Below are positions 1 through 16,941 of a stretch of DNA of 23,900 nucleotides, one piece after another. Source of the stretch: a virus; the IMG/VR virus record IMGVR_UViG_3300037549_000073, positions 1-23,900 of that record; one strand, given 5' to 3'. A program made the translations under genes and the position numbers. Under the pieces are notes generated by a model. The model was not told the origin of the DNA. It searched no databases and worked only from the letters and a program-made list of their open reading frames with translations. Position 1 is the first letter of the stretch; the number at the start of each line of letters is the position of its first letter.

Positions 1-3000
1 CGCGAGAGATCAGGCCGGCATCGAACAGGGTGCGCAGGGTCTGGTGGTTGATGGCGTAGACGCGCGCCGCGACCGCCTTGAAGTCGGCCGCCCTGGGGAG
101 GAAGCGGCTCAAAATATCCCGCGCCTCGTTGCGCGAAAGCCCGGAGGCGCCGGTGATATCGTGATCGTTGATCGCCCGGTTGAAGTCGCTGCCCGGCGGG
201 TGCAGTGCGCCGACGGCCTCGTTGCGCTCTACCGCGTGCCGCGCCATCAGGAATTGGTCGAGTTCTTCGCGGGTGATGCCCCGCGCCTTCATTGCGGCGA
301 TCAGCGGATCGATGCTCTCCCGATCGAGCCGTTCCAGCTTCTCGCCGGTGCGGCCGTAATAGAGACTTTCCGCCTGATAGGCGCTGAGCGCGGACTGGGT
401 GTTGCCGACCGACTGCTCGGCCTTCAAAACGCGATTGAACTTGTCCTGCAACTGAACGCGGGCTTCGGTGGCGTTGAGGTTGCCGAGCTTGCCGAGGGTA
501 CGGGTGCGGAGAATGTCGCCTATGCTGTTGTCGAAAGACCCTGCCCGTTTGAAGGCGTTATCCGGCTCGGAGAGCCCTAATGAACCGTCCTCTTTTGGTT
601 CACCATCCATCGGGCGTGCTGAACCGCCAGATCCTTGCCTAGGAAATCCGGCATTGCCAGCACTTCGGCCAAAAACCGCTCCCATGTCTCCAGGGTGTCG
701 AAGGGGTCGGGCTCGTCCAGCATTACCAGGGGCTTTGTCATTGCCGAAAAATCCTTTGCGCACGCTCTTGGCGATGGCGGTCATGGCATCATGTAGGCCG
801 GGAACGTCACGAACTAAAGTGCCGGGGTCGTAGTTCGTTTCGTAATCGACGATCCCCGCGTCTCTCAGGACCGTATTGACGAGATGGGCGTAAGCGGCGT
901 TGACGTGATCCACTATCTCGGGATTACGGTTGACCTCGGCCTGAAGGATGGCAATCAGCCTCTTCGATATCTGGTCGTAGTCCTGCTTCAACCAGAGGAT
1001 CGGATCAGGAGAACTTTGCTTCAGCTTTGCCTTTGCAGCGTCGGTCAGGTTGACGCGGTATCCGGCCCCTTTGTGGCCATGCGCCCATACGGCGTGGACA
1101 CCAGGCGCCCCCAACAAGGAGATGTCGGAACCGCTGAAACTCCGGTTTTTTGGATGGTTGTGATGGATGACGACACTCTCATCGGGATTCATCAGCCGGG
1201 CATCCAACTCGGGCGGAATATCAATGCGGTTATGGGAGCCTTCGTAGGCACCGATCTCCTTGCCGTTTTCGTCGATGGCGGAAAGGTGCTCGTTGCCGGT
1301 CGCGAGGCCGCGCGCAAGAACCTGATCCTGCGCCCGCGCGCCGGGCGCGATATGGTCCGGCTCCGGTTTCTTGGCCTTCGGCGGCTCCGGTGACTTCGGC
1401 GGCTCTGTGCCGGACTGCTCGTCGAGGAACTTCTGGCGATCCTCTGCCGACTTGAACTGGAAGCCCGGAATGGCGCCCTTCTTGTCGTAGGAGCTGTAAT
1501 ATCCGCCATGCTTCTTGGCGGACGCCGCCATCGCGTCATAGGTCGGCCGATCCGCGCGCGAGGTCGGTGTCGCCACGAACAGCTTGCCGCCGGTCTTGGC
1601 GTGGATCGTCTCGCCGGTCTTGTATTTCATGCCGGACGGAGCTGATACTGGTCCTGCCGCTCCGGAGGTTTGCTGCGCCTCATCTTCCTTCGGCGGGTTG
1701 GCCAGCGCGTCGAGGAACGCCTGCCGCTGCTCGGCCTTCTCGAACACGAAGTCCTTGCCGGAAGCCCCGCCGCCGTTCGCCTGCGCCAGCTTCGCCAGAT
1801 CGCGGTATTTGCCCGGCCCGACGCGGGCTTCCAGGCTGGCGGTTACCATCTTGTTGGGCAGCGACCGCAGCTTGAATTCGACGCCGGCAATGGTGACGTT
1901 GCCTTCGGTCGGGATATCGACGTCCTTGGTCTTCGGCTCACGCCGCTGGCCCATGTCCGCGTTTTCGATGCGGTCGAACAGATCGTTGATCTTCTCGACA
2001 TCGGTGTAGTCGCGGTTTTTCGGCTGCGGCATCGACCGGGCGATTTCCGGATCGGTCTGCTTTTCGAGCACAATGATGTGGGTCATGGCGCTTGTGCCGG
2101 CCCGCTCGAACGTCACCGCCGGCAGATCGATAGCGCCAACGAGGAAAAGGTCGTTCTTGCCCTCAAGGAATTCGACCAGTCGCTTGTCGGCCATGCCGCC
2201 CCTCGGCAGCAGCGCCACGATGCGACCGCCGTTCTTCAGGTGGGCGACAGCCTTGGAAAGGTGCTCGATCGCCGTCTTGCCGCCGGCGCCAAAGGGCGGG
2301 TTCATCACGATGGCGTCGAACTTGTTGGCGGGGATGCTCAGGTTCTCGAAGCGGTCCACGACAACGCGGGCGCCCGGCGAAGACAGCGCGGCGCGGCCGG
2401 CGAGGCTCGACGACGGCTCGATCAGGGTGCGCGCGGTATCCTCGGGGAAGTACCTCGAGATCGCGCCGTGACCAGCCGACGGTTCGAGGATCTTCTCGCC
2501 AGATTTGAGCGCGGCGAACTCGACCATCTTCAGGCCGATGGGTTCCGGCGTAGCGAAGTAATCCGCGCCCTCGCGCTGGTCGCGGCGGGCGCGGTTCTTG
2601 CCCTGGCCGAAATAGTGCGTCTTCGCCTTCTCGAACTCGGAAATGCTGTGCGAGGTCGCCGCGTCCGCGACCTTGCCACCCTTGCCTTCGCCCGGCTCCG
2701 GATCGAAATTGTCGGCATCGTTGAAGGCGTCGATATAGGACTGCTTGATGGTGCGCGCGACGTCGCCGAGCGCGAGGTTTTCGGCGGTCCCGGCCCGCTC
2801 GGCGATCTTGCCGGCGAAGGTCCATCGCTCCCAGGACGTTCCCGTGTTCATGTACCGGAAAATGGCGTCGGAGGCTTGGCCTACACGATATGTGCGGCCC
2901 TCCTGCTGGATCGCCGTCGTTGGCCGGACGGGCATGCCAAGGTTGACGGTGACGCGCTGCCGCTTGCCGGTGGTGTCGTGCAGGCTGATCCCTGCTTCAC

Positions 3001-6000
3001 CAGCGGCCGACTGCACGATGATGATGTCGCGCCCGCTGTTGTCGTCGTTGAACAGCCGCTTGGCTTCGTTGCGGATCTTGTTCGAGACGGTGCCGTTATA
3101 GATCAGCGCGTTCGGGAAAGCCTGCTGCAATGCATAGATCGGCGCTTGCAGGTCAGAGAATTGCAGGTTCTTAACCCAAGGATTGCGATCGAGGAACTCC
3201 TTGTAAAGCTCGGCCGGCTTGACCTCGGTGGCGTCCTTGCCGTGGCCGACCGAAATCTTGACGTTCGGCGGGATATCGAGAATGAACGGCGAGATACCGC
3301 CGCCCTCGTTATAGTCATGGAACACCACGACCTTGCGGCCGAGATCGAGCGACTTCTGAATATAAGGAATGGCGTGCTCGGCCTTGATGGCTTCCAAGAG
3401 CCGCATCCGCGTCAGATAGTCGAATTTCTTCGCGACCAACTCATGCAGCGGGCGGAACTTGCCGTCGTCCGCGTCCTGCAAGAATTCGAGCGCCTTATCG
3501 ATCTGGTTGCCGATCGCGTCGTCGACCAAAAGGAACTTGCGATCATAATCACGGTCGACGGTCAGCGCGCGTCCGGACAGCGAGCCCTGGCGCTTGAGAT
3601 ATTCGTGAAGCTGCCGCTCCATCACCTCGCCGCGAACGTCCGCGTCCGGCTTGGTAAGCTTGTTGGTCCGCATCCGGTAGCCGAGATGCTGCATGTAGAA
3701 CTTGTCGCGACCGCTGCCGGAATTGTAGCGGGCGCCATCTTCGCGCTCATGCTCGAAGAGATAACCCTCCGCATAGTCGAGCGAGAAATGATAGGCGAAC
3801 GGCGTGGCCGACATCATCAGCGTCTTCGGCCGCGGGGTCGCGCGCCACTTCTCGATCAGCGGCTCGGCTTTCTTGTAGAGCGCAAGATAGGCGTCGTCCC
3901 GCTCCTTACTGCCCTTCGGCAGGCGATCAGCCGCGTCGTATTCGTCGCGCAGCACCATCTCGGCGCGGTGGTTCATGCCGTCCGGGTGCAGCGTGATCGC
4001 GCGCAGCGTCCGCAGCGCGGCGGTCGTGGTGCCGTTCTGATCCGACGACAGCTTGTGCGCCTCGTCGGCGACAACCAGATCCCAATCGCGGTCGGCCAGA
4101 TGCCGGTTCGCGCCCATGTTGGCATAGGTCGTGGCAACGATGCCCTTACCCTTGTCCTGGGTGTCGCCGAGAACGGAGACGTCGAGGCCAAGATCTTTCG
4201 CCGACTTCACCCAATCCATGAGGATGCCTTGCGACGGCGCCACGATAAGGGTGTTCTTCTTGCCCTGCATCGCAAAACGCTTGATGACGCCAAGGCCGGA
4301 ATAGGTCTTTCCCGTGCCGGTGCCGTTGGTGAACAGCATCCCGTGGCCGTCCGGCTTGGCGAAGCGTTCTTCGGCTTTCCGCACGTCATCGTGCTGCTCG
4401 GGGAACAGCATCGGCAGCGTATCGGCGATATTGCCGATGTCGCCGGGAACAACTTTCGCGCCCTCGGCCCGGCGCTGCCGGTCGCGGCGCGCGGTTAGGT
4501 CGGCTTCTTTGCGAGCATTTTCGATAGTCTGTTCAGTTGAGGTACGTTCAAGCGGAAGTCGTCCCTCGCTGTCGTCAGAGCCTCGTTCCGGCTCTCCTGG
4601 GGCGGCATCGCCACTCTCATACTCGGGTTGTCGAGCAGGAAGTTCGAGATGGCCGTCCGCTCCCACAACAGGGGCATGATCTTCAGGTACGCCGCCGCCG
4701 TCTGCACGTCCGTCCCCTCCGCTACCAACCGCTTTTCCTCGCGCGCGAGAGCCGCGTCCAGTTGATCCTGCGGTAGAGGAAACATCTGCCTTGCCCACTC
4801 CGTCGCCAGATGTTGCGTTTCCGCGATCTGGTTCCAGTACGTCGCCGCTACCTGATGCATCGAGGTTTTCCTTGCCGGATTGAACGTCTTCGACGAACCG
4901 GACGATGTAGGGTTTCATCTCCCGAATGGCGTCGGGCGCCATGCCGCCCTTGTTCAAGTGCTGGATCAGACCGCGCACCATGCCGGTGACGTCGCCCGCG
5001 TCCTTGAAGTGCGAGACGCCTGCCTTGAAGAACGGGAGCGCCTGGCGATAGGTTGCGTCATCGAACGGCTCGGCATCCTCGAACAGGCCCCGATCCTCGG
5101 ACAGTCCGGGCTTCTTGCCGAACAGTGCGTTTAGGCCCTTGGCAACGTCATCGAGGCCCATCGGCTTCGGTGCGGCTGGGCGCGAGGGCGCCGGGTTTAG
5201 ATCCGCAGCGGGCGGCTTTGCCGCTCTTACCTTTGCCAGTAACTCATGCTTTTGCGCTGGCGTGAGGTCGTCGTATTTGTCGACGCGGTTGTTGGTTATC
5301 GCCTTCATGGCATCGAAGGCGATTTCGTGCTGCTTCGTCCTGCCGTCCTTGTGCATCGGCAGTTGGTGCAGGATTTCCGCCCATGTCGGTGCGTCACGCG
5401 CGGCGCGGCGCTCGGCTGCGGTCGGCTCGGTTTTGGCGGGACGTTCCTTCTTTGCCTGCCCTTCGACGCGCACGACGTCGGTGGTGCGCGGGCCATCCGC
5501 ATCGCCGAACAGTATGTCGTTCACGGTGTCGCGGTCGGACTGGCTGAAATTCTTCGGGTCGATCCCCTTCACAAGCGTCTGCTGCCAGTCGTTGCCGGTC
5601 GCCTGCGCTTCCTTCTTGGCCTCCGATACCAGCCATGCATCGAGGCGACCGAGCGAGGCCGTGGCCTTGCGCTCGCTCGTCATGTCGATCTTCGGCGCGG
5701 GTGATGTCTCCCGGCCGGAAACCGTCCTGATGACGACGCCGGTTTCGATGATCGGCTTGCCGCGCTCGCCCTCTGGCTTCTCGCCGAATTCCTCGCCCAT
5801 CACGTCGTCGAAGATGTCGGAAACGCTCTTGGGTTTGTCCTTCGGTTTCGCGGTTTCCGGCTCGGCCTTTTTGGGGGTCGACCTCTCAGCGGCCTCACCT
5901 GCCGCCTTCATCATGATGTCTTTGATGTCGAGCAGCGAGGCTCGGTTCGCGACAGCGCGCAGGAAGGCGTCTCTTGCCGCGGCGTAAACCGGCTCCGGTG

Positions 6001-9000
6001 AAGCTCCGCGCCATTTGCCGCGGGCCTCATTGTCGAGATAGACGCCAATCTGTCGGTTGACGTCTCTTTCGACGTCGTTGAACGCAACAGCCCTTTCAGG
6101 GTCGCCAGCCAGGATCGCCGCCGCACGCTTTACATGGTCGGATGTTGGCTTGAAATTGACGTGAACAAACGGATCTTTGTGGCCCGGCAAGGTAATCGCC
6201 GCATCGCGCTGCGCCTGCGTCATGTCCGCGGGTGCGCGAGTCGTCGGGTGGATGGTGAGCTCTCGCGCCTTCGCGCCGGCCAGCAGTAACTCGTGCAGCC
6301 GCTCTTTCGAGCCTCCAACTGCTTTCAGCAGATCGCCGATATAGACGATGCCGGTGGCCGCATTGAGCTTGTCATATGCCTTGCGGACGTCTTCGAGAGT
6401 GAGGTCTTTGGTGGGCTTCTCGACCGCCGGCTTCTCTGTGCGCGGGCGCTGTATCCAAAGCACATGGAACGGTTCGCCGGCCGGGTTGTAGGCGGCATCC
6501 TGCATGGCCTTGTCGATCTGCTTGGGATCGTCGTGGCGCATCAGGCTCGCCGTCTCGTCGCCCTTCAAAATGCGCTTCAGGCCCGCGTCGACTTCGGCCC
6601 GGCTCAGATCGGGCAGCGCAGCGCGGATCTTCGCGAGAGATGCGCTCTCGGCGTATTTCCCGCCGGTGACCTTGAGGTAGGCGTCCTCTATGCGGTCCCT
6701 GATGGCGTCGTCGGCATTTTCGGCGGCAGGCTTGTTTTCAGCGGTGTCGCCGGCTTTGTCCCCAGCGGCTTCGTTCCCGCCGGCGGCTGGCTTGAGGGTG
6801 CCGCCAGTCCGGGGATTGCTGGCAGCGCCGCCACCTTCGGCCGTTTCATCTTGTGCGCCAGTCGCGCTGCCGCCCTTAACGACCTCAGTTTTTGCTGAAT
6901 GACCGGGGCCGACTTCCCCAGATGTGGGGCGTTCTTGCTCAGGAGATGTGCCGCCGCCAGATGTCCCTTGGCGTCCGGCGTCCAGTACTGTTTCGATTTC
7001 GGGGCCATATGCCTTCTCTGCTTCCGGTTCGGGAACGAACTTCTGACCGACGAGGTTCTCGACGACCGCTTGGCCGAACGCGGTTTCCGGAGCCATGCCG
7101 TCATTGTTGGCGAGGATTTCCGCCGCGCGCGCCTTGTCGACCGGGAGCACTCCCTCCGCATCCGGGCCGAGCGCCTTGTCGATGTCGGCGTGATGCTTGG
7201 CTGACGGCTGGATGAAGTCCATCAGGTCGGTCTGCTTGTGACCGTCCCCGAACAGGCCGTCATCGGCGGCTTTCTGCGCCACGCGCGGCTTCAGTCTGGC
7301 GTCGGCGCCGCGCTGCGCCATCTGGCCGTCGCCGGCCTTCTCAGCTCCGGGGATTACCGTCTGCGGCTTGTTGTCGGCGCCGGCTTCGGTGGTTGTCCGC
7401 GGGAAGGCCCGGCGGATCGCTGCCGCAAGATCCTTGCCGCGCAACTCGATCCTGCCGAACGGGGAGATCGTGATCGTGACGACCTTGCCGCGGCCCTCGA
7501 CGTTGCCGCGCTCGATGCTGCGACCGCCGTAGCTCTCGCTCCATCCATGCTTTGAAAGGGTGTCGATCAGGTCAGCGTCGGAGGCGCCTCGATCGATCGC
7601 AGCCTGGACCGCGCGCTCTCCACCCTGATTGACGGTGGAAACCGCCCGAACGGCGGCGTCGATATAGTGCTGCCTGCTGCCGGCTACTTCTTCGGCGGGT
7701 TCTTCCCGGCGTTTCTCGCCATCGCCGTCGCCAGCCTTCGGAACCTGTCTGCCATCTCGTTCTGCTTCTTTGCCTTCGCCGGGTCGCTCTCCGTCTTCGC
7801 CTTCTCCTTCAGGAGCCCAGCCATCTTCATATGTTGCTTCGGGGTGAACTGTTGCATCGTATGCTCCGTACCCGTAAATATCATAAAGCTCGCTCTTGGT
7901 CACTCCGTAATCGGGGTCATCCGCCACTTCCGGCACCAGCCGGGCGGCAGCTCGGCCAACCGCGCTATGCGGATCGGTTTCGCCTTCGTCGGCCATGATG
8001 CGAACCGCGAGCTCGCGGTCCTCCGGGTGTATGTCGGCATATCCAGCGGCCTCGATAGCCCGCCGCGCCTCGCCGTAGTATTCCTCGTCGCGCTCGCGCT
8101 CGTGGGCATCGCGCTCCGCGTCGAGGGTGTCCTGAGCCTTGGTCTGGTAAAGCTCGTCGCCCTCGGGGAAGCGGTGCTTCTTGGCGATACCGTCGCGGAC
8201 AGCCTCAACGAGGTCGTCCCCGGTGATCCGATCGTCCTTGGACCAGTAGAAATGCTGCTGCGCCAGGTTGGCCATGTCGTCGGGCGAAAGGCCGCGCTTG
8301 TTGTTCACCAGCGCAGGAAAGCCCTTATGGCCTTTCGGCATCGAGACGATGTGCTTGTGCGCGTCCATCGCTTTCAGCTCAGGACCGTATTTGACGCCTT
8401 TGACCTTTAGGCCGCCCTTGCTGACGATGAATTGCAGCAGGTTCAGCGGCTCGGCGCCGCCCGGCTTGGGTGGTGACCTGGGAGCGGGTTTTGCCTCGGA
8501 AGCCGGCTCCGCATATGGCTTTTCGGGTGGTGACCTATCGGCGGGTTTTTCGCTGACCGGCTTGGTGGGCTGCTCGGGCTGCGCCGGGCGTTTGGCCAAA
8601 TCCGGTATTACGGGATGCTGCCTGATCCACGGCGGTTGCAGTCCGTTCGGATAGTCGGCCGGCTTGGTGTGGTCGGCGAATTTCAACCAAGCTTTGAACT
8701 GGCCCGGCGTGTAGGCGACAACGCCGCCGATGCGATCGCCGCCGCCATCGGTGTAGGAATTCGCGTAGGCGTGCATCGCGTCGATCGGGGTGCGAAAGCC
8801 CGCCAGAATTTTGTGCTCGTCGAACCCTTTGCCGCCTGCATGGTGCTGGTTGATGATGAAGACGTGCGGGCTGGTCGGATGCGGGCCGATGAACACGTCC
8901 AGCGGCTCGCCGTCGGCGCCCTTGGTCCCCTTGATCCTGCCATAAGCCGCGTGCTCCATCTTTACGGACCACGGCTTGCCGTCGGGGTCGGCGCCTTCGC

Positions 9001-11305
9001 GTGTGCCGCCAACGCCAGTCTCGACACTGATCGAATTCTTGCCGCTCAGGCCGAGATGCGGCATTTCGGCATGGCCGTGCTTGAAGTTCTCGGCCTGCGC
9101 TTGGGCCGGCGTTGGCTCCGCGGCTACTTCGCCAGCGCGAACCACGTCATCAGCGGTCTTGACGACAACCGGCTTATCGCGCGTACCGTCGCCTGTCGGC
9201 TCGCTCGGCTTGGGAGTTTCCGGCGACTTTGGAGCAGGCTTAGAGTGCTTCTCGACCAGCGCCCGCATGTTCTTCTGGAAGTTCGCATCGCGCTCAATGC
9301 GAGATTGTTCGTCGGCGAACGCCTTAAACTGGTCGATGGTTTGCAGACCGCCACGCGCCCTGACCATCTTGGCCGCTTGCAAGAGGGCGCTAGGTCCGCC
9401 GGTGCTGTTCTCGCTGGTTTCGCCGGCCTGCACGCGCGCCCATAGATGGTCGCGTAGGCTGTCGCCGATGCCCTGCGCCATGCCCTTGAGGCCAGCCTTG
9501 AGGCCGGTGCTGTCGTCGTCTGATTGCGGCTTCGGCTGCTCGGGCGGTCGCTCTGCGCCGCCGCCGCGTCCTACGGCCTCCTGGTATCGCCGCCGCCGCT
9601 CCGATGGCGACATGGCGCGCACGAGGCTTTCGGGCCAGCCTTTTCGAACGAGGTATTCGCGCTCGGTGCGCTCGCTCGCGGCTTCCTCGCGCGCGGCGAC
9701 TTCTTCCGGCGTCTCGGGCTTGGCCGTGTGGCCGGTGCTCGATGTGTCGCGCAGATGCTCGTTGACGGCGTTGAACAGCTCGTGGTCGGCCAGCTTGCTC
9801 GGGTCTGATCCCGGCTCAAAATGGCGATAGACCTTCTCCATCTTGGCGCGCGTCTTCGCGTCCATCGTGAAGTCGGGGCCTTTGCCTTCGCCGCTGCCGG
9901 GCGGTGGTTTGCCGGCACCAGGACCGGGGCCGGCACCAGGACCGGGGCCGGCACCAGGACCGGGGCCAGGACCAGGACCAGGACCGGGGCCAGGACCAGG
10001 ACCAGGACCGGGGCCGGGACCAGGACCGGGACCGGGGCCGGGACCAGGACCGGGGCCAGGACCAGGGCCAGGACCGGGGTCCTGTTCCCATCGCTTGCCG
10101 TCGGCGGACGGTCTGTATTTCGCGCCGGTGCGTTTGTCGGTCCATGTTTCGCCGAAGTCGTCGGTGTCCCAGTGCGGATCGTCGGTCGGCGGCCGACTTC
10201 TCATCCGGTTGCCGTCGTCAGGTGGCAGCTCGCCCGGCTTCTTCTCGAATAGATGGTGCAGTCCGCCCATGCCGGCGCCGAGGATCAACTCGGCGATGAG
10301 GCGCTTCTGATCGAAGGTGTAGCCAGCTTTCGGGTCGTAATCCTTCTTGATCTGTTGAAGCATCGCTTCCTGCGCTTCACCAGCGGTCGCGAAAGCGGCG
10401 CTGGATGACGCGACCTTCCCGATGAGGCTCTGAGCATACTTGCCGGCACCCAGCGGCAAGCTGCCGAGAACACCAGCGACCAGCGCCGAACGACCGGCAA
10501 CTGAACGCGCAACGTCTTCGCTCGCGCCGTCCTTGATGGCCTGTTCATAGGTCGAGCCGTAGGTATCGGCCGCCATGCCCGTGAAACCAGCCGCGATACC
10601 GAGCGGCGCGTTGACCAGCGTGGCCGCAGCATAAGGCGCGATCGACCCGATCCCCTTTCCGACGCGACCGGCGATCGAGTCGTTTTCCTGATCCGTCATC
10701 GGGATGTTGTCGCGGCCGAACTGCTGGACCGCGTTGCCGGCGCTGACCAGTTGCGGGCCAAGCGGATGCTTTGCCTGTTCGGCGCCAAGCTGCGCTTCTT
10801 GGGCTTTCTGTGCCGCGAGCGCGGCCGGATCGTTGATGACGCCGCTGAATTGGTTCGAGACGCTGTTGGCATCGCCCATCGCGTCGATGGTCGGCTGCCC
10901 CTGCGAAATCAGCGTGCCGGCACCCTTGAGAATGCCGCCGGCACTCTCGATCGCCCCAGCGGGGATACCCTTGAGCAGCGCCTTGGCGTTGCCGGCAACG
11001 CCGAGCGGTTCCTCTGGCTCCTTGTCGGGCTCTACCAGATCGCCATAAGACGACGGCGGTTTAGTGATCGCGCCGGGCGCTTTGACAATATCGCCATAAG
11101 ACGACGGCGGTTTTACTTCCGGCTCTTTCGCGTCGATGTGCCGCGTCTTGCGGTCCTGTCGTCGCGCGACCGCATCCGCGAGCCGGCCGGGATCTACGGG
11201 ATAGCCTGGGCCGACATCCTCGGGGAAAACTTGACGTGCGAGATCGTCGACGCCCTGCCCTGGATCATACGGGGCATCGCTACCGAAAGCGTCGAAGAGA
11301 CCCAT
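1..11305 (-). CDS. Giant phage polyvalent protein (helicase, methyltransferase, pyrophosphatase-like, JAB), 3' end outside window
   Basis: I read this frame codon by codon from ATG 11305 to the left edge and found no stop, giving at least 3768 residues. Order: MGLFDAFG start; two KPPSSYGD repeats (about 65-95); hydrophobic segments (about 215-350); Pro-Gly tract (410-464); InPase-like domain (about 770-880); several charged linkers; DEAH/SNF2 helicase (about 2310-2850); N6-adenine methyltransferase (about 2900-3090); duplicated small domain (3152-3297); JAB/MPN motif (3382-3394); helical C-terminal region (from about 3585). This is the architecture of phage and mobile-element polyvalent proteins, which are thought to be delivered with DNA to modify it or counter host defence. 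The start lies 5 bp after the upstream stop, with AGGAAG about 10 nt before it. Long plus-strand frames here are antisense shadows. Four linkers overlap small ORFs in another frame. Delivery and anti-defence roles are inference. Confidence 0.93.
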   Translation of the reverse strand, partial: MGLFDAFGSDAPYDPGQGVDDLARQVFPEDVGPGYPVDPGRLADAVARRQDRKTRHIDAKEPEVKPPSSYGDIVKAPGAITKPPSSYGDLVEPDKEPEEPLGVAGNAKALLKGIPAGAIESAGGILKGAGTLISQGQPTIDAMGDANSVSNQFSGVINDPAALAAQKAQEAQLGAEQAKHPLGPQLVSAGNAVQQFGRDNIPMTDQENDSIAGRVGKGIGSIAPYAAATLVNAPLGIAAGFTGMAADTYGSTYEQAIKDGASEDVARSVAGRSALVAGVLGSLPLGAGKYAQSLIGKVASSSAAFATAGEAQEAMLQQIKKDYDPKAGYTFDQKRLIAELILGAGMGGLHHLFEKKPGELPPDDGNRMRSRPPTDDPHWDTDDFGETWTDKRTGAKYRPSADGKRWEQDPGPGPGPGPGPGPGPGPGPGPGPGPGPGPGPGPGPGPGPGPGAGPGPGAGPGPGAGKPPPGSGEGKGPDFTMDAKTRAKMEKVYRHFEPGSDPSKLADHELFNAVNEHLRDTSSTGHTAKPETPEEVAAREEAASERTEREYLVRKGWPESLVRAMSPSERRRRYQEAVGRGGGAERPPEQPKPQSDDDSTGLKAGLKGMAQGIGDSLRDHLWARVQAGETSENSTGGPSALLQAAKMVRARGGLQTIDQFKAFADEQSRIERDANFQKNMRALVEKHSKPAPKSPETPKPSEPTGDGTRDKPVVVKTADDVVRAGEVAAEPTPAQAQAENFKHGHAEMPHLGLSGKNSISVETGVGGTREGADPDGKPWSVKMEHAAYGRIKGTKGADGEPLDVFIGPHPTSPHVFIINQHHAGGKGFDEHKILAGFRTPIDAMHAYANSYTDGGGDRIGGVVAYTPGQFKAWLKFADHTKPADYPNGLQPPWIRQHPVIPDLAKRPAQPEQPTKPVSEKPADRSPPEKPYAEPASEAKPAPRSPPKPGGAEPLNLLQFIVSKGGLKVKGVKYGPELKAMDAHKHIVSMPKGHKGFPALVNNKRGLSPDDMANLAQQHFYWSKDDRITGDDLVEAVRDGIAKKHRFPEGDELYQTKAQDTLDAERDAHERERDEEYYGEARRAIEAAGYADIHPEDRELAVRIMADEGETDPHSAVGRAAARLVPEVADDPDYGVTKSELYDIYGYGAYDATVHPEATYEDGWAPEGEGEDGERPGEGKEAERDGRQVPKAGDGDGEKRREEPAEEVAGSRQHYIDAAVRAVSTVNQGGERAVQAAIDRGASDADLIDTLSKHGWSESYGGRSIERGNVEGRGKVVTITISPFGRIELRGKDLAAAIRRAFPRTTTEAGADNKPQTVIPGAEKAGDGQMAQRGADARLKPRVAQKAADDGLFGDGHKQTDLMDFIQPSAKHHADIDKALGPDAEGVLPVDKARAAEILANNDGMAPETAFGQAVVENLVGQKFVPEPEAEKAYGPEIETVLDAGRQGTSGGGTSPEQERPTSGEVGPGHSAKTEVVKGGSATGAQDETAEGGGAASNPRTGGTLKPAAGGNEAAGDKAGDTAENKPAAENADDAIRDRIEDAYLKVTGGKYAESASLAKIRAALPDLSRAEVDAGLKRILKGDETASLMRHDDPKQIDKAMQDAAYNPAGEPFHVLWIQRPRTEKPAVEKPTKDLTLEDVRKAYDKLNAATGIVYIGDLLKAVGGSKERLHELLLAGAKARELTIHPTTRAPADMTQAQRDAAITLPGHKDPFVHVNFKPTSDHVKRAAAILAGDPERAVAFNDVERDVNRQIGVYLDNEARGKWRGASPEPVYAAARDAFLRAVANRASLLDIKDIMMKAAGEAAERSTPKKAEPETAKPKDKPKSVSDIFDDVMGEEFGEKPEGERGKPIIETGVVIRTVSGRETSPAPKIDMTSERKATASLGRLDAWLVSEAKKEAQATGNDWQQTLVKGIDPKNFSQSDRDTVNDILFGDADGPRTTDVVRVEGQAKKERPAKTEPTAAERRAARDAPTWAEILHQLPMHKDGRTKQHEIAFDAMKAITNNRVDKYDDLTPAQKHELLAKVRAAKPPAADLNPAPSRPAAPKPMGLDDVAKGLNALFGKKPGLSEDRGLFEDAEPFDDATYRQALPFFKAGVSHFKDAGDVTGMVRGLIQHLNKGGMAPDAIREMKPYIVRFVEDVQSGKENLDASGSGDVLEPDRGNATSGDGVGKADVSSTAGSTGRGSRARGKAVGSGGDGRADGGGVPEDHAPVVGADGHLELPARQPEYESGDAAPGEPERGSDDSEGRLPLERTSTEQTIENARKEADLTARRDRQRRAEGAKVVPGDIGNIADTLPMLFPEQHDDVRKAEERFAKPDGHGMLFTNGTGTGKTYSGLGVIKRFAMQGKKNTLIVAPSQGILMDWVKSAKDLGLDVSVLGDTQDKGKGIVATTYANMGANRHLADRDWDLVVADEAHKLSSDQNGTTTAALRTLRAITLHPDGMNHRAEMVLRDEYDAADRLPKGSKERDDAYLALYKKAEPLIEKWRATPRPKTLMMSATPFAYHFSLDYAEGYLFEHEREDGARYNSGSGRDKFYMQHLGYRMRTNKLTKPDADVRGEVMERQLHEYLKRQGSLSGRALTVDRDYDRKFLLVDDAIGNQIDKALEFLQDADDGKFRPLHELVAKKFDYLTRMRLLEAIKAEHAIPYIQKSLDLGRKVVVFHDYNEGGGISPFILDIPPNVKISVGHGKDATEVKPAELYKEFLDRNPWVKNLQFSDLQAPIYALQQAFPNALIYNGTVSNKIRNEAKRLFNDDNSGRDIIIVQSAAGEAGISLHDTTGKRQRVTVNLGMPVRPTTAIQQEGRTYRVGQASDAIFRYMNTGTSWERWTFAGKIAERAGTAENLALGDVARTIKQSYIDAFNDADNFDPEPGEGKGGKVADAATSHSISEFEKAKTHYFGQGKNRARRDQREGADYFATPEPIGLKMVEFAALKSGEKILEPSAGHGAISRYFPEDTARTLIEPSSSLAGRAALSSPGARVVVDRFENLSIPANKFDAIVMNPPFGAGGKTAIEHLSKAVAHLKNGGRIVALLPRGGMADKRLVEFLEGKNDLFLVGAIDLPAVTFERAGTSAMTHIIVLEKQTDPEIARSMPQPKNRDYTDVEKINDLFDRIENADMGQRREPKTKDVDIPTEGNVTIAGVEFKLRSLPNKMVTASLEARVGPGKYRDLAKLAQANGGGASGKDFVFEKAEQRQAFLDALANPPKEDEAQQTSGAAGPVSAPSGMKYKTGETIHAKTGGKLFVATPTSRADRPTYDAMAASAKKHGGYYSSYDKKGAIPGFQFKSAEDRQKFLDEQSGTEPPKSPEPPKAKKPEPDHIAPGARAQDQVLARGLATGNEHLSAIDENGKEIGAYEGSHNRIDIPPELDARLMNPDESVVIHHNHPKNRSFSGSDISLLGAPGVHAVWAHGHKGAGYRVNLTDAAKAKLKQSSPDPILWLKQDYDQISKRLIAILQAEVNRNPEIVDHVNAAYAHLVNTVLRDAGIVDYETNYDPGTLVRDVPGLHDAMTAIAKSVRKGFFGNDKAPGNAGRARPLRHPGDMGAVFGRSAGNAGFPRQGSGGSARPMDGEPKEDGSLGLSEPDNAFKRAGSFDNSIGDILRTRTLGKLGNLNATEARVQLQDKFNRVLKAEQSVGNTQSALSAYQAESLYYGRTGEKLERLDRESIDPLIAAMKARGITREELDQFLMARHAVERNEAVGALHPPGSDFNRAINDHDITGASGLSRNEARDILSRFLPRAADFKAVAARVYAINHQTLRTLFDAGLISR
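577..741 (-). CDS. Small ORF (54 aa) embedded in a linker of the giant gene, +1 frame
   Basis: ATG at 741, TAG at 579-577. The protein starts MTKPLVMLDEPDPFDTLE and ends WMVNQKRTVH. It has a balanced, helix-prone composition with three tryptophans/phenylalanine-rich turns and looks like a genuine small protein, although it is short. An AAAGGA sequence lies 10 nt upstream (752-757). In 601-720, hand-counted third-position GC is 31/40 in this frame but 14/40 in the overlapping giant frame, whose residues here (about 3522-3577) are Gly/Ser/Arg/Pro/Glu-rich. Function unknown. The alternative is a chance open frame, which the reversed third-position signal argues against. Confidence 0.68.
   Translation of the reverse strand: MTKPLVMLDEPDPFDTLETWERFLAEVLAMPDFLGKDLAVQHARWMVNQKRTVH
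1040..1330 (-). other. Domain: JAB/MPN (RadC-like) metallopeptidase fold of the giant protein
   Basis: Residues about 3325-3420. The motif HNHPKNRSFSGSD gives H3382-x-H3384-P followed by S3391-x-x-D3394, matching the JAMM/JAB zinc-binding pattern H-x-H-P-x(n)-S-x-x-D. It sits after the duplicated small domain. Such domains are widespread in phage polyvalent proteins; the substrate cannot be told from sequence. I did not securely identify the upstream catalytic glutamate. Confidence 0.75.
1415..1852 (-). other. Tandem duplication of a small domain in the giant protein
   Basis: Two related segments lie between the methyltransferase and the JAB domain: residues 3152-3201 and 3241-3297. Each starts with a beta-like KxxxAT/KMVTAS stretch and ends in a (F)-x-F-x-(K/S)-A-E-x-R-Q-(K/A)-F-L-D pattern. 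The second copy keeps a HGGYYSSYDKKGAIPGFQF core and the first has a shortened, glycine-rich version. This is probably an internal duplication with one degraded copy. I do not know the function. Confidence 0.6.
2040..2620 (-). other. Domain: N6-adenine DNA methyltransferase of the giant protein
   Basis: Residues about 2900-3090. An AdoMet-binding motif I, EPSAGHG, lies at 2941-2947. The catalytic NPPF motif lies at 3002-3005 within the context DAIVMNPPFGAG. Both are hallmarks of amino-methyltransferases acting on adenine in DNA. The domain follows the helicase directly, which suggests the pair acts on the same DNA, for example by methylating incoming phage DNA to avoid restriction. Target sequence unknown. 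Confidence 0.88.
2750..4380 (-). other. Domain: SNF2/DEAH-type superfamily 2 helicase of the giant protein
   Basis: Residues about 2310-2850. Walker A is NGTGTGKTYSG (catalytic lysine 2333). It is followed by the motif Ia-like stretch NTLIVAPSQ, Walker B VVADEAH (DEAH at 2414-2417) and a motif III-like LMMSATPF. The C-terminal lobe ends in motif VI QQEGRTYRVGQ (2800-2810), with the two arginines expected to act as arginine fingers. The set and order fit an intact SF2 ATPase. Helicases of this type next to an adenine methyltransferase are typical of phage and plasmid polyvalent proteins. Confidence 0.9.
4495..4860 (-). CDS. Small helical protein (121 aa) embedded in a linker of the giant gene, +1 frame
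   Basis: ATG at 4860, with AAGGA 8 nt upstream (4869-4873). The protein begins MHQVAATYWNQIAETQH and reads as an ordinary, probably all-helical cytosolic protein with well-spread W, Y, F, L and charged residues. There is no signal peptide or membrane segment. The overlapping giant frame (residues about 2149-2271, just before the helicase) is a Gly/Ser/Asp/Arg-rich linker. Over 4502-4861 third-position GC is 95/120 in this frame and 50/120 in the giant frame, the opposite of the giant gene's domain regions (about 90%). I therefore take this as a real gene. Function unknown; its position beside helicase and methyltransferase domains suggests a related early or accessory role (inference). Confidence 0.8.
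   Translation of the reverse strand: MHQVAATYWNQIAETQHLATEWARQMFPLPQDQLDAALAREEKRLVAEGTDVQTAAAYLKIMPLLWERTAISNFLLDNPSMRVAMPPQESRNEALTTARDDFRLNVPQLNRLSKMLAKKPT
6688..7008 (-). CDS. Small basic protein (106 aa) embedded in a linker of the giant gene, +1 frame
   Basis: I chose the ATG at 7008 because the sequence from MAPKSKQYWTPDAKGHLAAA onward looks like protein, whereas the frame upstream is Arg/Ser-rich noise. AGAAGG lies 3 nt upstream (7012-7017), a short spacing. The first 60 residues are basic and helix-prone (HLLSKNAPHLGKS, RAAARLAHKMKRPK) and could bind nucleic acid. The rest is Pro/Ala/Thr/Lys-rich and probably disordered. Third-position GC is 71/96 here against 57/96 in the giant frame, a weaker contrast than for the other embedded ORFs, especially in the C-terminal half. 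Function unknown. Confidence 0.58.
   Translation of the reverse strand: MAPKSKQYWTPDAKGHLAAAHLLSKNAPHLGKSAPVIQQKLRSLRAAARLAHKMKRPKVAALPAIPGLAAPSSQPPAGTKPLGTKPATPLKTSLPPKMPTTPSGTA
7684..7857 (-). CDS. Small basic helical protein (57 aa) embedded in a linker of the giant gene, +1 frame
   Basis: Start chosen at ATG 7857 (MQQFTPKQHMKMAGLLKEKA) because GGAG lies 6 nt upstream (7864-7867). An in-frame ATG at 7884 has no good ribosome site. The protein is lysine-rich and helical, with an ESDPAKAKKQNEMADRFRRL segment. From memory this resembles small hypothetical proteins of rhizobia and their phages. The overlapping giant frame (residues about 1150-1208) is a Glu/Gly/Asp/Arg-rich linker. Third-position GC is 51/59 in this frame against 24/59 in the giant frame. 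Function unknown. Confidence 0.76.
   Translation of the reverse strand: MQQFTPKQHMKMAGLLKEKAKTESDPAKAKKQNEMADRFRRLATAMARNAGKNPPKK
8660..9000 (-). other. Domain: phage inorganic-pyrophosphatase-like (InPase) domain of the giant protein
   Basis: Residues about 770-880 of the giant protein contain AAYGRIKGTKGADGEPLDVF followed by IGPH (tyrosine at residue 788). The acidic, glycine-rich G-x-x-G-A-D-G-E-x-(L/V)-D-V-F-I-G pattern is the signature of the InPase-like domain found in phage polyvalent proteins. It resembles the metal-binding acidic cluster of soluble pyrophosphatases. Boundaries are approximate and no activity is shown. Confidence 0.72.
9914..10078 (-). repeat. Pro-Gly coding tract with degenerate 6/15/18-bp repeats
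   Basis: The giant gene encodes alternating Pro and Gly for about 55 residues (410-464), with alanine replacing proline three times near the end. The DNA is a mosaic of CCAGGA/CCGGGG units. Three copies of an 18-bp unit lie at about 9911-9966, and shorter units fill the rest. Proline and glycine codons alternate between CCT/CCC and GGT/GGC, so the tract is not a perfect simple repeat. It probably forms a flexible spacer between the hydrophobic N-terminal part and the rest of the protein. Confidence 0.9.
11040..11113 (-). repeat. Two copies of a 23-bp repeat, 51 bp apart, encoding KPPSSYGD
   Basis: The bases TCGCCATAAGACGACGGCGG and three following Ts occur at 11040-11062 and again at 11091-11113. 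The period is 51 bp, that is 17 codons, so both copies encode KPPSSYGD in the giant protein. The reading frame is kept, which points to an internal duplication or a short linear binding motif. Confidence 0.85.
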
Positions 11306-12429: not shown

Positions 12430-13461
12430 TTAACCGACAAGTGCGGCGCCGCCGACTGATGTTGGCCCGACCGCGCCGGCGATTGACCCGTTGGCGTTGA
12501 CGCCACTGCCGAGCGAGCCGCCGATGGCGCTTCCGAGGCTGCTGCCGATGGCTCCGCCGACCGGGCCGCCGAGCAACGCGCCGCCGATCGTGCCAGCGAG
12601 TGCCCATCCCGAATTGTTCGGCTGCTGCGTGGTCGATTGCGTCGAGGCCGGCATCGCCTGGGCGCCCGCGGCCGTCGTCTGGTTCATGAGCTGCGCCGTC
12701 TGGAACGGGTACTGCTGCGCCATCAGCCATTGATTGTATTGGGCGGTGAGGTTGGCTTGTGCGTTCTGCGTGTCCTGGCCCGCCATCTGGTTCGCCGTGG
12801 TCTGAACGCCCTGCTGCTGGGTCTGAAGCCCTTCGAGCGCATTGGCGCCGCCGAGCGATCGGTTGAGTGCGGTCTCGTTGTAGCCGGCGTTGGCATTGGC
12901 CGCGGCGAGCTGGTTGGAGCTATCCTGCGCGCCTGCACCGATTGCGGTATTGAAAGCCGAGTTGTAGGCGTTTCCGATCACTCCCTCGCGCGCGACGTTT
13001 TCGTTTTCGGCGTTCTGCGCCTGCTGGATCCCGGTTCGCGCATCGCCATAGGCGCCGGATCCGGTCGCCTGGGCATCGGTCGCCTGATTGGTCGCGGCGT
13101 TGGTCGCATCCATCTGCTGAAGCTGCGGCGCGAGTGCCTGCATGACGTACTGGTTCATGTAGGGCGACATGTTCGAGGCGATCGAATTCGAGCTCACGCT
13201 CTGCGCCGGTGCGCTGGCATAATTGTCGATCAGCCCGGTCGCGGCCGCGCCAGTGCCGTTGTTGGCGATATTCTGGCTGGCGTCGATCGTGGCCTGTTGA
13301 GCTGGAGCGAGCGGCGCTACCTGCTGCCCGGTATAGCCCTGGAAACCGTTATTTTGGAGGTTCTGGACAAACCCTAAGTTGCTCACGGCATTGGCGGCAA
13401 CGGCCGGGTTGGCTGTCGACGACGTGTTGGTCTGGTTTGTGGTCGTCATGCCAAAGCACAT
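12430..13461 (-). CDS. Gln/Asn/Ala-rich glycine-zipper protein, putative DNA-ejection protein (343 aa)
   Basis: The protein is rich in Gln, Asn, Ala and Ser with long helical stretches. It carries a C-terminal glycine zipper (residues about 287-320: WALAGTIGGALLGGPVGG, then further G-x-x-x-G repeats) that could insert into a membrane. A segment NQWLMAQQYPFQTAQLMNQ (about 243-261) resembles a recurrent pattern in phage structural proteins. The start MCFGMTTTN follows the previous stop by 4 bp; ATG codon 5 is an alternative. Glycine-zipper proteins after the tail genes in short-tailed phages are commonly ejection or pilot proteins. That role is inference from composition and position. Confidence 0.85.
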   Translation of the reverse strand: MCFGMTTTNQTNTSSTANPAVAANAVSNLGFVQNLQNNGFQGYTGQQVAPLAPAQQATIDASQNIANNGTGAAATGLIDNYASAPAQSVSSNSIASNMSPYMNQYVMQALAPQLQQMDATNAATNQATDAQATGSGAYGDARTGIQQAQNAENENVAREGVIGNAYNSAFNTAIGAGAQDSSNQLAAANANAGYNETALNRSLGGANALEGLQTQQQGVQTTANQMAGQDTQNAQANLTAQYNQWLMAQQYPFQTAQLMNQTTAAGAQAMPASTQSTTQQPNNSGWALAGTIGGALLGGPVGGAIGSSLGSAIGGSLGSGVNANGSIAGAVGPTSVGGAALVG

Positions 13462-14156: not shown

Positions 14157-15946
14157 GATCGGTTGCCGCTTTCCTGCACCCATGCCACGGGAGATCCCCA
14201 GCGGAAATAACTGCCGAGAGAAGAGCACGAGGCGACCATCTCGATGTAGCGGCCGGACACGCGCATATCGATCGTGCCGCTATTGCTCGGCACAAGGATC
14301 TCGGTTTCGCTGTCCTCCATCGCCGAGTCGTTGAGCCGGTCCCAGGTATTGAGCGTCAGCGAGATGTTGCCGACCTGGCCGAGAAAGTCCGAGACGATGT
14401 ACTGCACGTCGACATGGGTGCCGCCCGCGTTCATCTGGTAGGGCGCGAGCGTGATGCTCCACGGCAGGATCGCGCCGTTATCGTCGAGGGTGTTCTCGTG
14501 CTGGTAGATGTATCCGTCCGCGGCGCCCATGTAGGGCCGCGTATCGCCTTGGGTGAAGTGCGATCCGGATACCCGGGCAAAGCTCAGGGGCGCCCAGCAT
14601 TGGTTTTCGATCGAGAAGATCAGGCCAAGCGTCGGGTTGGTCTGGCCGTTGACCGTGTAAAAGAACCAGACCTCGTTGTGGGTCGAGCTATAGACCGCCG
14701 TGCATTGATAGCCGTAGGACGTGTTAAGATTGTCAAAGACGAACTTCCTGATGTCCTCGACATTGGGCATCGGCTGCACCGTGCCGTTATACATCCAGAA
14801 CGTATCCTGTCCCTGCCAATAGGCGATGCCGCCCGCGGTGACCGCGCCGCCCGGTGAGATCAGGCCGCAGTCCTTTGCGACCATGCTCGAATTGTAGACA
14901 TAGGCCGAGCCGGTATATTGGAACCGGAACAGCGCGGCGTCAGACCAGACTAGCGCCACGAAATCGGATAGAACCAAGCCTCCGACCAGCTTTGTCCCTT
15001 GGACAAGCGTTCTGATGTTCGCAGTATTGGCTATCGCAGGCGTCCATGTGGTCGGATCGCCCTGGCTGCACCAAGCAAGTTGCATCCCGGTCAGAAGCGC
15101 GAAGATGAACCGCTCATTGGTAACGAACATGAAGCGGACGTTGGCTGGCAGGCTCGCATCCGACGAGATGATGACCGCCCTGCCCCATGGCTGCGCGGCG
15201 GTCGGATCAAACTGCCAAATCGATCCGCCATTGTACGAGCACATCAAAAGCTGGCCGAAATGATCCAGCGACCAGACCCGAGGCTCGATGAAGATGGTGG
15301 AGGTTGATCGCGCCGTACCATAGGTGCCGAGGCCGTAGCCGCCGACGCCCCAGCCGAGGCCGTAGACGCCGAGCTCAACTCCGGCCGGGACTTCATATTG
15401 ATAGGTGACCGCCGATCCGCCGCCGGCCGCGACCGTCGATGTCGCGTTGGAGGTGAACGTGTAGGTGTAATGCCCGCTGTCGGGAACGTTCGCGACTATA
15501 AATGTTCCGTTCGGCGTGATGCCGCCGATGGCCGCCGAGCCGGCGATGATGGCCGTATCGCCGACATTGAGGCCGTGCAGCGATTGCGTGACGGTCACGG
15601 TTGGCGATCCCGACGTCACAGCGAGCGGGTTAGCTCCCAGCGTCCCGGTCGAGCGAAACGGCGTGATGTCGTTCTGCACCCAGCTCGTGTCATAGACATA
15701 GAGCTTCCGGTAGGTGCCGGCCGCCATGTAGTTGTTCTGAAGATTGTCACGCCATGCGTGGAGCGCCCGCGGCGTCCCTGACGTCGGCGTCGTTACCGCC
15801 CGGACATTGCCGGCGAGCTTTTGCGGGCGGCCTTTGACAAAACGGACATTGTTCGAGCCGATCCATCGGCCCTGCGCCGCGCTCGCGCTCTCCGTGAGGA
15901 CGACGCCCGGCGGCGGTACGATCGGAACCGGCGTAAGCTGCGACAT
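14153..15946 (-). CDS. Putative tail hub/nozzle protein with an E1_FCCH-like insert (597 aa)
   Basis: The start MSQLTPVPIVPPPGVV is chosen because its ATG at 15946 overlaps the stop of the collar gene (TGATG). The N-terminus resembles phage proteins with a PxPIVxPPG...GRWIGSNNVRFVKGRPQKLAG opening. The body has repeated aromatic-rich beta strands (WSLDHFGQLLMCSYNGGSIW, ERFIFALLTGMQLAWCSQGD) consistent with a beta-propeller, as in P22 gp10-type hub or nozzle proteins. Residues about 105-185 form an E1_FCCH-like beta insert (HGLNVGDTAIIAG...NGTF) that also occurs in the adaptor gene. It would plug or extend the short tail. The structural assignment is moderate, from pattern and order. Confidence 0.72.
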   Translation of the reverse strand: MSQLTPVPIVPPPGVVLTESASAAQGRWIGSNNVRFVKGRPQKLAGNVRAVTTPTSGTPRALHAWRDNLQNNYMAAGTYRKLYVYDTSWVQNDITPFRSTGTLGANPLAVTSGSPTVTVTQSLHGLNVGDTAIIAGSAAIGGITPNGTFIVANVPDSGHYTYTFTSNATSTVAAGGGSAVTYQYEVPAGVELGVYGLGWGVGGYGLGTYGTARSTSTIFIEPRVWSLDHFGQLLMCSYNGGSIWQFDPTAAQPWGRAVIISSDASLPANVRFMFVTNERFIFALLTGMQLAWCSQGDPTTWTPAIANTANIRTLVQGTKLVGGLVLSDFVALVWSDAALFRFQYTGSAYVYNSSMVAKDCGLISPGGAVTAGGIAYWQGQDTFWMYNGTVQPMPNVEDIRKFVFDNLNTSYGYQCTAVYSSTHNEVWFFYTVNGQTNPTLGLIFSIENQCWAPLSFARVSGSHFTQGDTRPYMGAADGYIYQHENTLDDNGAILPWSITLAPYQMNAGGTHVDVQYIVSDFLGQVGNISLTLNTWDRLNDSAMEDSETEILVPSNSGTIDMRVSGRYIEMVASCSSLGSYFRWGSPVAWVQESGNRS

Positions 15947-16941
15947 CAGTAGCGGATGCACATCATCATGGTGAGGGCTTCCGGTCTGGCTTCGGTGCCG
16001 TCAGCGGAGCCGGCCGAGGTCGTAAAGCTATAGCCGTGGGTGTGCGAGCCAACTTCGTAGCCGGAATTAACGGAGAACGAGAAACTGTGTGCGTGTCGCG
16101 TACTCGCGCCGCTAGTGTTGGCGCCGACCTGAGATGATTCGAAATAATTTGGCGATGTTCCTGTGCCATATCCAGTCGCGGGAGACGTGTAACCATGCGC
16201 ATGGTCCGGGCTATCGTTCCCGGTCGTCCCGCCGCCAGTGACATTGTGATAATGGGCCGCGCTCTCGGCTCCCGTCGTCCCGCTGCCCGTATGGGTATGC
16301 GTCAGGTTTTGGTTGGCCTGATAGGTGCCGACGGCAACGGAAGCTGTGCGCGAGCGCAGAAACGATCCGAAACCACTCCCCTGCGAATAACCGTTCGGCA
16401 GGTTGAACGTGCTAAACCCATCGCCAGCGCCCCAGGTCGTTCCGATGACGCCGTAGAGATCGGCGAACAACGTGCGCGAAATGGCCGCGCCATTGCATTC
16501 GAAGGTGCCGCCCGGCGCCGATGCCGCGGCATGGTAGATCACGTTGCCGATGAAATTGTAATCATCTCGGTACAGAGCCCCAGTGCCGTCAGACACGATG
16601 TCGGTCGGCTTCGCTGTGGGGACATTGACCGCGCTGCCGCCGGCGTTGGCTTGCGTTGCATAATTCCCGGTGCACTGGTTGATGAATGTCCACTTCTTCG
16701 AGGTCGACGGGACCACGATCATCAGCGGTGAGGTCAAAGCGCCGGTCAATTTGATGATCGCCGAAAGGCTTTGCGCTGCATTCAGCGTGACGGTGCCGCC
16801 CGTCGTCGACACCAGCGTTGTCGCCGCAATCGCATCCTCGATCAGGACGATGGTGGCGTTGAGGTTGATGCCCCAGGAATTGTTGTCGCCGCCAGTCCCC
16901 ATCTGGATCAAGCCGAGCAGCGGGGTAGTGGTGTCAGTCAT
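15946..16941 (-). CDS. Phage tail-collar domain fibre protein (331 aa)
   Basis: The start MTDTTTPLLGL (ATG 16941) overlaps the adaptor gene by 8 bp. The N-terminal part (residues about 15-95) is a beta-rich fibre segment with TTGGTVTLNAAQSL and VVPSTSKKWTFINQCTG. Residues about 132-185 are the collar domain: GGTFECNGAAISRTLFADLY, then VIGTTWGAGDGFSTFNLPNG. The C-terminal part carries five H-x-H pairs (215/217, 230/232, 247/249, 283/285, 300/302) and ends TEARPEALTMMMCIRY. Histidine pairs of this kind bind metal ions in trimeric short tail fibres such as T4 gp12. A host-surface-binding tail tip is the likely role. Confidence 0.9.
   Translation of the reverse strand: MTDTTTPLLGLIQMGTGGDNNSWGINLNATIVLIEDAIAATTLVSTTGGTVTLNAAQSLSAIIKLTGALTSPLMIVVPSTSKKWTFINQCTGNYATQANAGGSAVNVPTAKPTDIVSDGTGALYRDDYNFIGNVIYHAAASAPGGTFECNGAAISRTLFADLYGVIGTTWGAGDGFSTFNLPNGYSQGSGFGSFLRSRTASVAVGTYQANQNLTHTHTGSGTTGAESAAHYHNVTGGGTTGNDSPDHAHGYTSPATGYGTGTSPNYFESSQVGANTSGASTRHAHSFSFSVNSGYEVGSHTHGYSFTTSAGSADGTEARPEALTMMMCIRY

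Follow-up and report, generated by a model that had tools for sequence, protein, structure and literature searches.

The window analysed here—the whole 23.9-kb stretch of viral DNA—carries a late/virion gene module that ends in a giant gene. The module encodes a major head protein (19382–20374, minus strand) and a tail fibre (15946–16965) and, in the virion module adjoining the giant gene, a DNA-ejection protein (12430–13461, minus strand). The giant gene itself (2–11305, minus strand) continues past the window edge and encodes a polyvalent, DarB-like protein of at least 3768 amino acids. Its PF18823 (InPase) domain (8681–9106, minus strand) also matches PHROGs of virion structural and minor head proteins, and a Gly-Pro dipeptide repeat tract with unusual third-position composition lies at 9866–10045. 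Further along the protein, an ordered helical domain that is variable between phages (4862–5071, minus strand) comes immediately before a linker stretch rich in Gly, Ala, Ser, Asp and Arg (4495–4861, minus strand; giant residues 2149–2270). Directly behind this linker stand an SF2 helicase with a Strawberry-notch-like C-terminal part (2759–4408, minus strand; PF04851, PF13871) and then a DNA methyltransferase domain (2012–2572, minus strand). The helicase (residues 2300–2850) is thus placed ahead of the methylase (2912–3098), and the combination of the two in one polypeptide meets the test for a DarB-like polyvalent protein.

The linker stretch coincides with a second open reading frame, which runs from an ATG at 4860 to 4495 on the same (minus) strand, lies entirely within the giant ORF in the +1 frame relative to it and encodes 121 amino acids. 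The initial annotation had proposed that this is a gene overprinted within the giant gene, a proposal now confirmed by the ORF map and by comparative evidence. The AAGGA that it had placed at good spacing is a Shine-Dalgarno-like site at 4869–4873 (minus strand), 8 nt upstream of the nested ATG. Its compositional figures hold to within one codon: over 4502–4861 we count third-position GC at 94/119 in the nested frame (given as 95/120) and, as originally stated, 50/120 in the giant frame, set against 54/60 in three giant-gene control stretches (19/20 at 2282–2341, 19/20 at 3002–3061 and 16/20 at 8702–8761).

This signal alone is insufficient evidence, because 68 ORFs of ≥50 aa lie within the giant gene in frames other than its own, same-strand or antisense, and because giant-frame third-position GC also drops in several other 60-codon windows. 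Most of the other overlapping ORFs tested in the giant gene proved to be shadows of the conserved giant frame, and ORF 7684–7884 shows no constraint. Opposite the helicase-methylase part, on the plus strand (1670–4498), runs an antisense open frame of 942 codons; it has long matches in relatives and is probably also a shadow of the conserved giant frame.

Start signals and distribution of the nested gene

With profile scans of IMG/VR, the set of nested-gene loci grew to 172 records (103 loci when made non-redundant at 90%), with identity down to about 20%. The start codon is ATG in 171 records and GTG in one, and sequence conservation sets in at this Met. Shine-Dalgarno-like pairing at ≤ −4 kcal/mol was found for 90% of the 103 non-redundant nested starts versus 28% of control ATGs (5,373 ATGs in the nested frame; p about 2e-35); the sites are weak in a minority of loci. 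A nested-frame stop occurs within 10 codons upstream of the start in 41/103 loci and directly before the ATG in 8/103. The conserved ATG and the enrichment of ribosome-binding sites suggest that the nested gene has its own translation start and favour internal initiation over frameshifting, without amounting to experimental proof.

Searches of named phages with tblastn returned homologues at 29–48% identity in six: Ruegeria phage 45A6, Vibrio phages 1.232.O and D274, Klebsiella phage ZX1, Pseudomonas phage Skulduggery and Serratia phage Parlo. In all six, the homologue is one base out of step (+1) with the giant gene; none of the six records annotates it, showing the giant coding sequence alone. 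Every named phage with this helicase (6/6) also has the nested gene. Among the non-redundant loci, 102/103 place the nested gene wholly within an ORF of ≥1000 codons and in the +1 frame, with 42–66 codons between the nested stop and the Walker A motif of the SF2 helicase domain, the constant partner of the nested gene, in most loci. With 103 non-redundant homologues that all share one frame relation, apart from a single free-standing copy, the nested ORF is far above chance. Adjacency to the helicase is not absolute, because extra giant domains separate the two in four loci (L015, L018, L024 and L182). In L011, an intein-like insertion after position 10363 splits the helicase Walker A (TNGTGTGK, an insertion ending VVTHN, then TYSGG).

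To guard against ascertainment, a scan of IMG/VR used only the helicase domain as query, and the 80 best loci were taken. The nested gene was present in 78/80, always in the +1 frame and nearly always 155–200 codons before Walker A; the two loci without it (L100 and L116) are free-standing helicase ORFs. A second scan with these two as queries gave 48 further loci (some contigs recur between scans), in which the nested gene accompanied 33/33 helicases of longer ORFs and 0/15 free-standing helicases, the latter being 839–872 codons long where complete. The nested gene is thus found in every fused giant helicase gene sampled. Since all the related giant genes that were examined hold it at one and the same position, it represents a real, widespread family. 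Annotation has overlooked this family, presumably because gene-finding programs rarely predict one gene within another.

A profile search of about 1,150 bacterial genomes gave one match that is nested (G001, the same as L141), one that is free-standing (G003, the same as L143) and two that both lie within long ORFs (G654 and G1108); a weak match in a PrmC-like protein was taken as chance. No standalone copy was found among the phages and plasmids searched, and the single plasmid match was again nested within a giant gene. The 57.7-kb Comamonas thiooxydans record NZ_CP083940 (L192) is catalogued as a plasmid. Alongside the giant and nested genes it has tail genes and a replication initiator, and it is probably a phage-plasmid.

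The free-standing copy in L143, a Burkholderiales MAG, stands alone at 10001–10555 and encodes 184 aa. It has a Shine-Dalgarno site, begins at the conserved Met of the family and has a third-position GC of 116/123 over the conserved part. It belongs to an element of about 9.8 kb (L143:8300–18163) that has tRNA-Pro at one boundary and a direct repeat of the tRNA 3′ end at the other and carries genes for a tyrosine integrase and a Toprim primase as well as a DUF3987 gene; neither the giant gene nor this helicase was detected within the element. Such a layout tentatively points to a phage satellite or a small integrative element. The element lacks this helicase, which shows that retention of the nested protein does not require the presence of its usual partner. 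The search for homologues or a stand-alone gene that the initial annotation had proposed therefore turned up abundant homologues and one free-standing copy. Either of two outcomes would have overturned its claim, namely an absence of homologues or relatives with stops in the nested frame; neither occurred, for homologues abound and no relative has a nested-frame stop.

Constraint and structure in the two frames

Selection was assessed with a site-class test, in which each substitution from 23 independent close pairs was classed according to what it does in either frame. For the nested frame, the dN/dS-like ratio of non-synonymous to synonymous changes at sites that change the giant protein (NN/SN) was 0.42; for the giant frame, the ratio of non-synonymous to synonymous changes at sites that change the nested protein (NN/NS) was 1.14. 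By this measure, the nested frame is under purifying selection and the giant amino-acid sequence over the overlap is neutral. Nested proteins were more alike than giant ones in all 1,571 pairs compared (15–60% DNA divergence), and codon choice in the overlap was closer to genome usage in the nested frame at 77/101 loci (p about 2e-12).

Synonymous shuffling of nested codons in 102 genes led us to expect 167.6 giant-frame stops over the overlap, and none was seen. Under the same shuffling, third-frame stops numbered 1063 versus 1002 expected, and control windows held 2652 versus 2820 expected. In the reciprocal direction, shuffling of giant codons in 44 genes gave an expectation of 69.4 nested-frame stops versus none seen. 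The proposed check of constraint in both frames across relatives thus finds a constrained nested frame and a giant frame that is neutral yet open. The description of the giant frame as one that merely runs through the small gene stands as regards its neutral, disordered product; it does not stand in so far as it implied a dispensable shadow, since stops are absent. The giant frame is presumably kept stop-free because the helicase behind the overlap must be reached.

AlphaFold2, supplied with 83 relatives, predicts a seven-helix nested protein (mean pLDDT 96.9, pTM 0.89), a confident all-helical fold that agrees with the helical product read from the sequence originally. When the giant product was folded with its neighbours, the overlap was predicted to be disordered (segment residues 72–177, pLDDT 30–44), with the preceding domain mostly at 81–89 and the helicase mostly above 90; its composition, rich in Gly, Ala, Ser, Asp, Arg, Glu and Pro, is consistent with the Gly/Ser/Asp/Arg linker first described. 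The two substitution ratios, the fold and the codon choice together support the view that the small gene is the constrained one. Foldseek searches of the nested fold against PDB and BFVD gave no match with E below 0.9. Searches of the nested protein against Pfam, PHROGs, NCBIfam, PADLOC and PDB sequences placed it in no family and returned only scattered weak matches, mostly to single members, of which those to Pfam, PHROG and PADLOC were rejected as noise; weak matches to the T4-like gene e.6 had E about 0.1. Comparative sequence evidence has in this way shown that 4495–4860 (minus strand) genuinely codes for protein: it is a gene nested within the giant DarB-like gene, in the +1 frame, and encodes a predicted all-helical protein of a new, unannotated family.

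Were the nested ORF a compositional artefact, it would be the shadow of a GC-rich giant gene, its high third-position GC supplied by the G-starting Gly, Asp, Glu, Ala and Val codons of the linker. Giant first positions are indeed nested third positions, and the many other-frame ORFs and the dips in third-position GC elsewhere in the gene lend the idea some colour, but the site-class test, with selection on nested amino acids and none on giant ones, the confident nested fold and the missing giant-frame stops refute it. Other overlapping ORFs (2163–2825, 10285–10632, 4207–4452 and 8683–8943) mostly show the opposite pattern and the nested gene is also present in AT-richer phages (L039 and L051), so that we regard the chance of an artefact as negligible. 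Programmed frameshifting into the nested frame, which would give a truncated giant protein with the nested domain as its tail, would suit the constant frame offset and is not excluded by any expression data; it nonetheless appears very improbable, given that conservation starts from the Met, that most loci have properly spaced Shine-Dalgarno sites, that nested-frame stops so often lie close upstream and that the free-standing copy has the same Met start. Internal initiation is preferred over a frameshift product for these reasons.

Origin of the overlap and possible role

Taken as a whole, and with origin and function graded separately, an explanation that joins a nested gene, an internal start, a linker, enclosure and a helper role seems to us highly probable. 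Ribosomes would initiate on the giant-gene mRNA at the nested Shine-Dalgarno site and ATG, as inferred from the start context, and make a seven-helix protein of about 14 kDa. Ribosomes translating the giant gene would pass over these bases shifted by one nucleotide and produce a disordered linker that joins the N-terminal polyvalent domains to the SF2 helicase-methyltransferase; staying stop-free would be the sole remaining duty of the giant frame over the overlap. Expression of the nested gene is an inference from its sequence, in the absence of protein or ribosome-profiling data. Because it would be made from the same message, the nested protein would be inherited together with its target and matched to it in dose.

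Divergence of the nested gene tracks that of the helicase (Mantel r 0.69, p 0.001) and hardly follows the 150 giant residues before the overlap (Spearman 0.18). Free-standing helicases begin at about the position where the nested gene ends. In L186, representative of L183–L189, the giant gene is split. The genes there, in a P1-like Dar order, encode a DarA-like protein, a polyvalent protein of 949 aa, a helicase-methylase of 1233 aa (whose gene retains the nested gene) and a PmgG-like head protein. Free-standing helicase-methylases without the nested gene (L149, L151 and L152) adjoin DnaB-like or primase/helicase genes. From the order in L186, set against the free-standing forms beside replication genes, the nested gene appears to go with the virion-module form of the helicase. 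We infer, with somewhat more confidence than doubt, that the helicase-methyltransferase gene was once free-standing, with the small gene just upstream of it, and that a gene further upstream fused through the small gene in another frame and so enclosed it.

Small genes nested in another frame are familiar from phage lambda, where Rz1 lies within Rz. Gene E within gene D of phiX174 is another nested alternative-frame gene (PMC8227390). As in those pairs, the small gene here lies fully inside another in a different frame and has its own ribosome-binding site, and the criteria for a nested gene of this kind—containment, selection on the inner frame, an outer frame kept coding and, as inferred from sequence, an own start—are met. 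Unlike in those pairs, the outer frame here is neutral and disordered and the inner protein folded and constrained; moreover, the outer gene is a giant polyvalent gene of dsDNA phages and no known family matches the inner product. Spanin and endolysin genes that overlap (PMC6139136, PMC3111421) are likewise nested in tailed phages, but are lysis genes with other proteins and another architecture. With its two frames overlapping completely and constrained in opposite ways, the locus is a clean natural example that bears on the origins of overlapping genes.

The giant protein resembles the polyvalent proteins of phages and conjugative elements in being a giant multidomain protein, with an SF2 helicase and a methylase, encoded in a late phage module (PMC5512222). 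Proteins of the DarB type have the methylase first and then the helicase (PMC5512222); the giant protein has the reverse of the P1 DarB order and does not meet the test of an N-terminal methylase. The text of that paper contains neither ‘overlapping’ nor ‘alternative frame’, and the open-access literature that we searched describes no nested gene in these giant genes. P1 DarB, the archetype, is carried in the phage head and shields the DNA that is injected (PMC5512222). Other proteins take part in its localisation, among them the small Ulx (PMC9024508), a DarB helper encoded beside darB (PMC9024508, PMC9144972). The likeness lies in an injected helicase-methyltransferase with a small gene next to it, the P1 helpers aiding localisation of DarB to the head; the nested gene, encoded with a DarB-like helicase-methylase, meets a location criterion of the Ulx type. 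Ulx is, however, a separate gene, and the nested protein showed no sequence similarity to Ulx or to other ORFs in the P1 darB and ddr/darA stretches that were scanned, so homology to Ulx and to these ORFs was rejected. Homologues of the P1 helpers were not found in Bcep22-like phages (PMC9144972), and the nested protein is one candidate for the small partners still missing for injected, DarB-like proteins of anti-restriction. It may be a packaging, ejection or activity partner of a virion-carried, injected helicase-methyltransferase in anti-restriction of the P1 Dar type. Helping this enzyme is the likeliest role but an inference held only tentatively, as binding, packaging and phenotype have not been directly shown.

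Enclosure has a rival in classical overprinting, in which the giant gene and its linker came first, the small gene arose de novo inside them and one copy later escaped to a satellite-like element. Disorder is typical of young overlapping proteins, whereas the small protein is confidently predicted to be helical; it is the giant sequence over the overlap that is disordered, neutral and codon-atypical, and free-standing helicases start close to the end of the small gene. For overprinting speak the +1 frame, the commonest among de novo internal overlaps (PMC8227390), the status of L143 as the sole homologue outside this setting and our failure to find any genome with the polyvalent gene, the small gene and the helicase as three separate genes. 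Because no such three-gene ancestor was found, de novo birth in the linker is not excluded, and overprinting stays a possibility that we take seriously without expecting it. As to function, the nested protein might instead be an independent late or early factor (a regulator, host-takeover or counter-defence protein) whose position in the giant gene reflects linkage only. The copy in an element without the helicase would fit such a factor, as would the lack of any PADLOC, Pfam, PHROG or NCBIfam family that identifies the protein; its presence in every fused helicase sampled and in no free-standing one, and its co-divergence with the helicase, would not. We consider an independent factor quite conceivable, short of probable.

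A second nested gene in the same giant gene

Enclosure of a folded small gene may also be seen in wider terms. In this account, the gene was enclosed and not born, and the pair has been inherited as a unit by diverse tailed phages, with each injected helicase-methylase supplied with a built-in partner from its own message; a second nested gene was acquired and linkers of polyvalent genes may generally hide unannotated genes. We place this account a little below an even chance. The last suggestion arises because the same giant gene has a second nested gene, and it invites a search for nested genes in other giant phage genes.

The second gene (6688–7008, minus strand; 106 aa) is also in the +1 frame and is contained in an overlapping ORF at 6688–7161, with its start at 7008. 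It is rarer than the 4495–4860 gene, with a narrower distribution and weaker start signals, and had no match in named phages. The same contrast between frames recurs, with NN/SN of 0.23–0.63 (nested frame constrained) versus giant NN/NS of 0.99–1.38 (giant frame neutral). Four further contigs (L009 and L205–L207) carry the gene at 64–84% identity, and its Pro-rich C-terminal tail is kept in L009, L205, L206 and L207.
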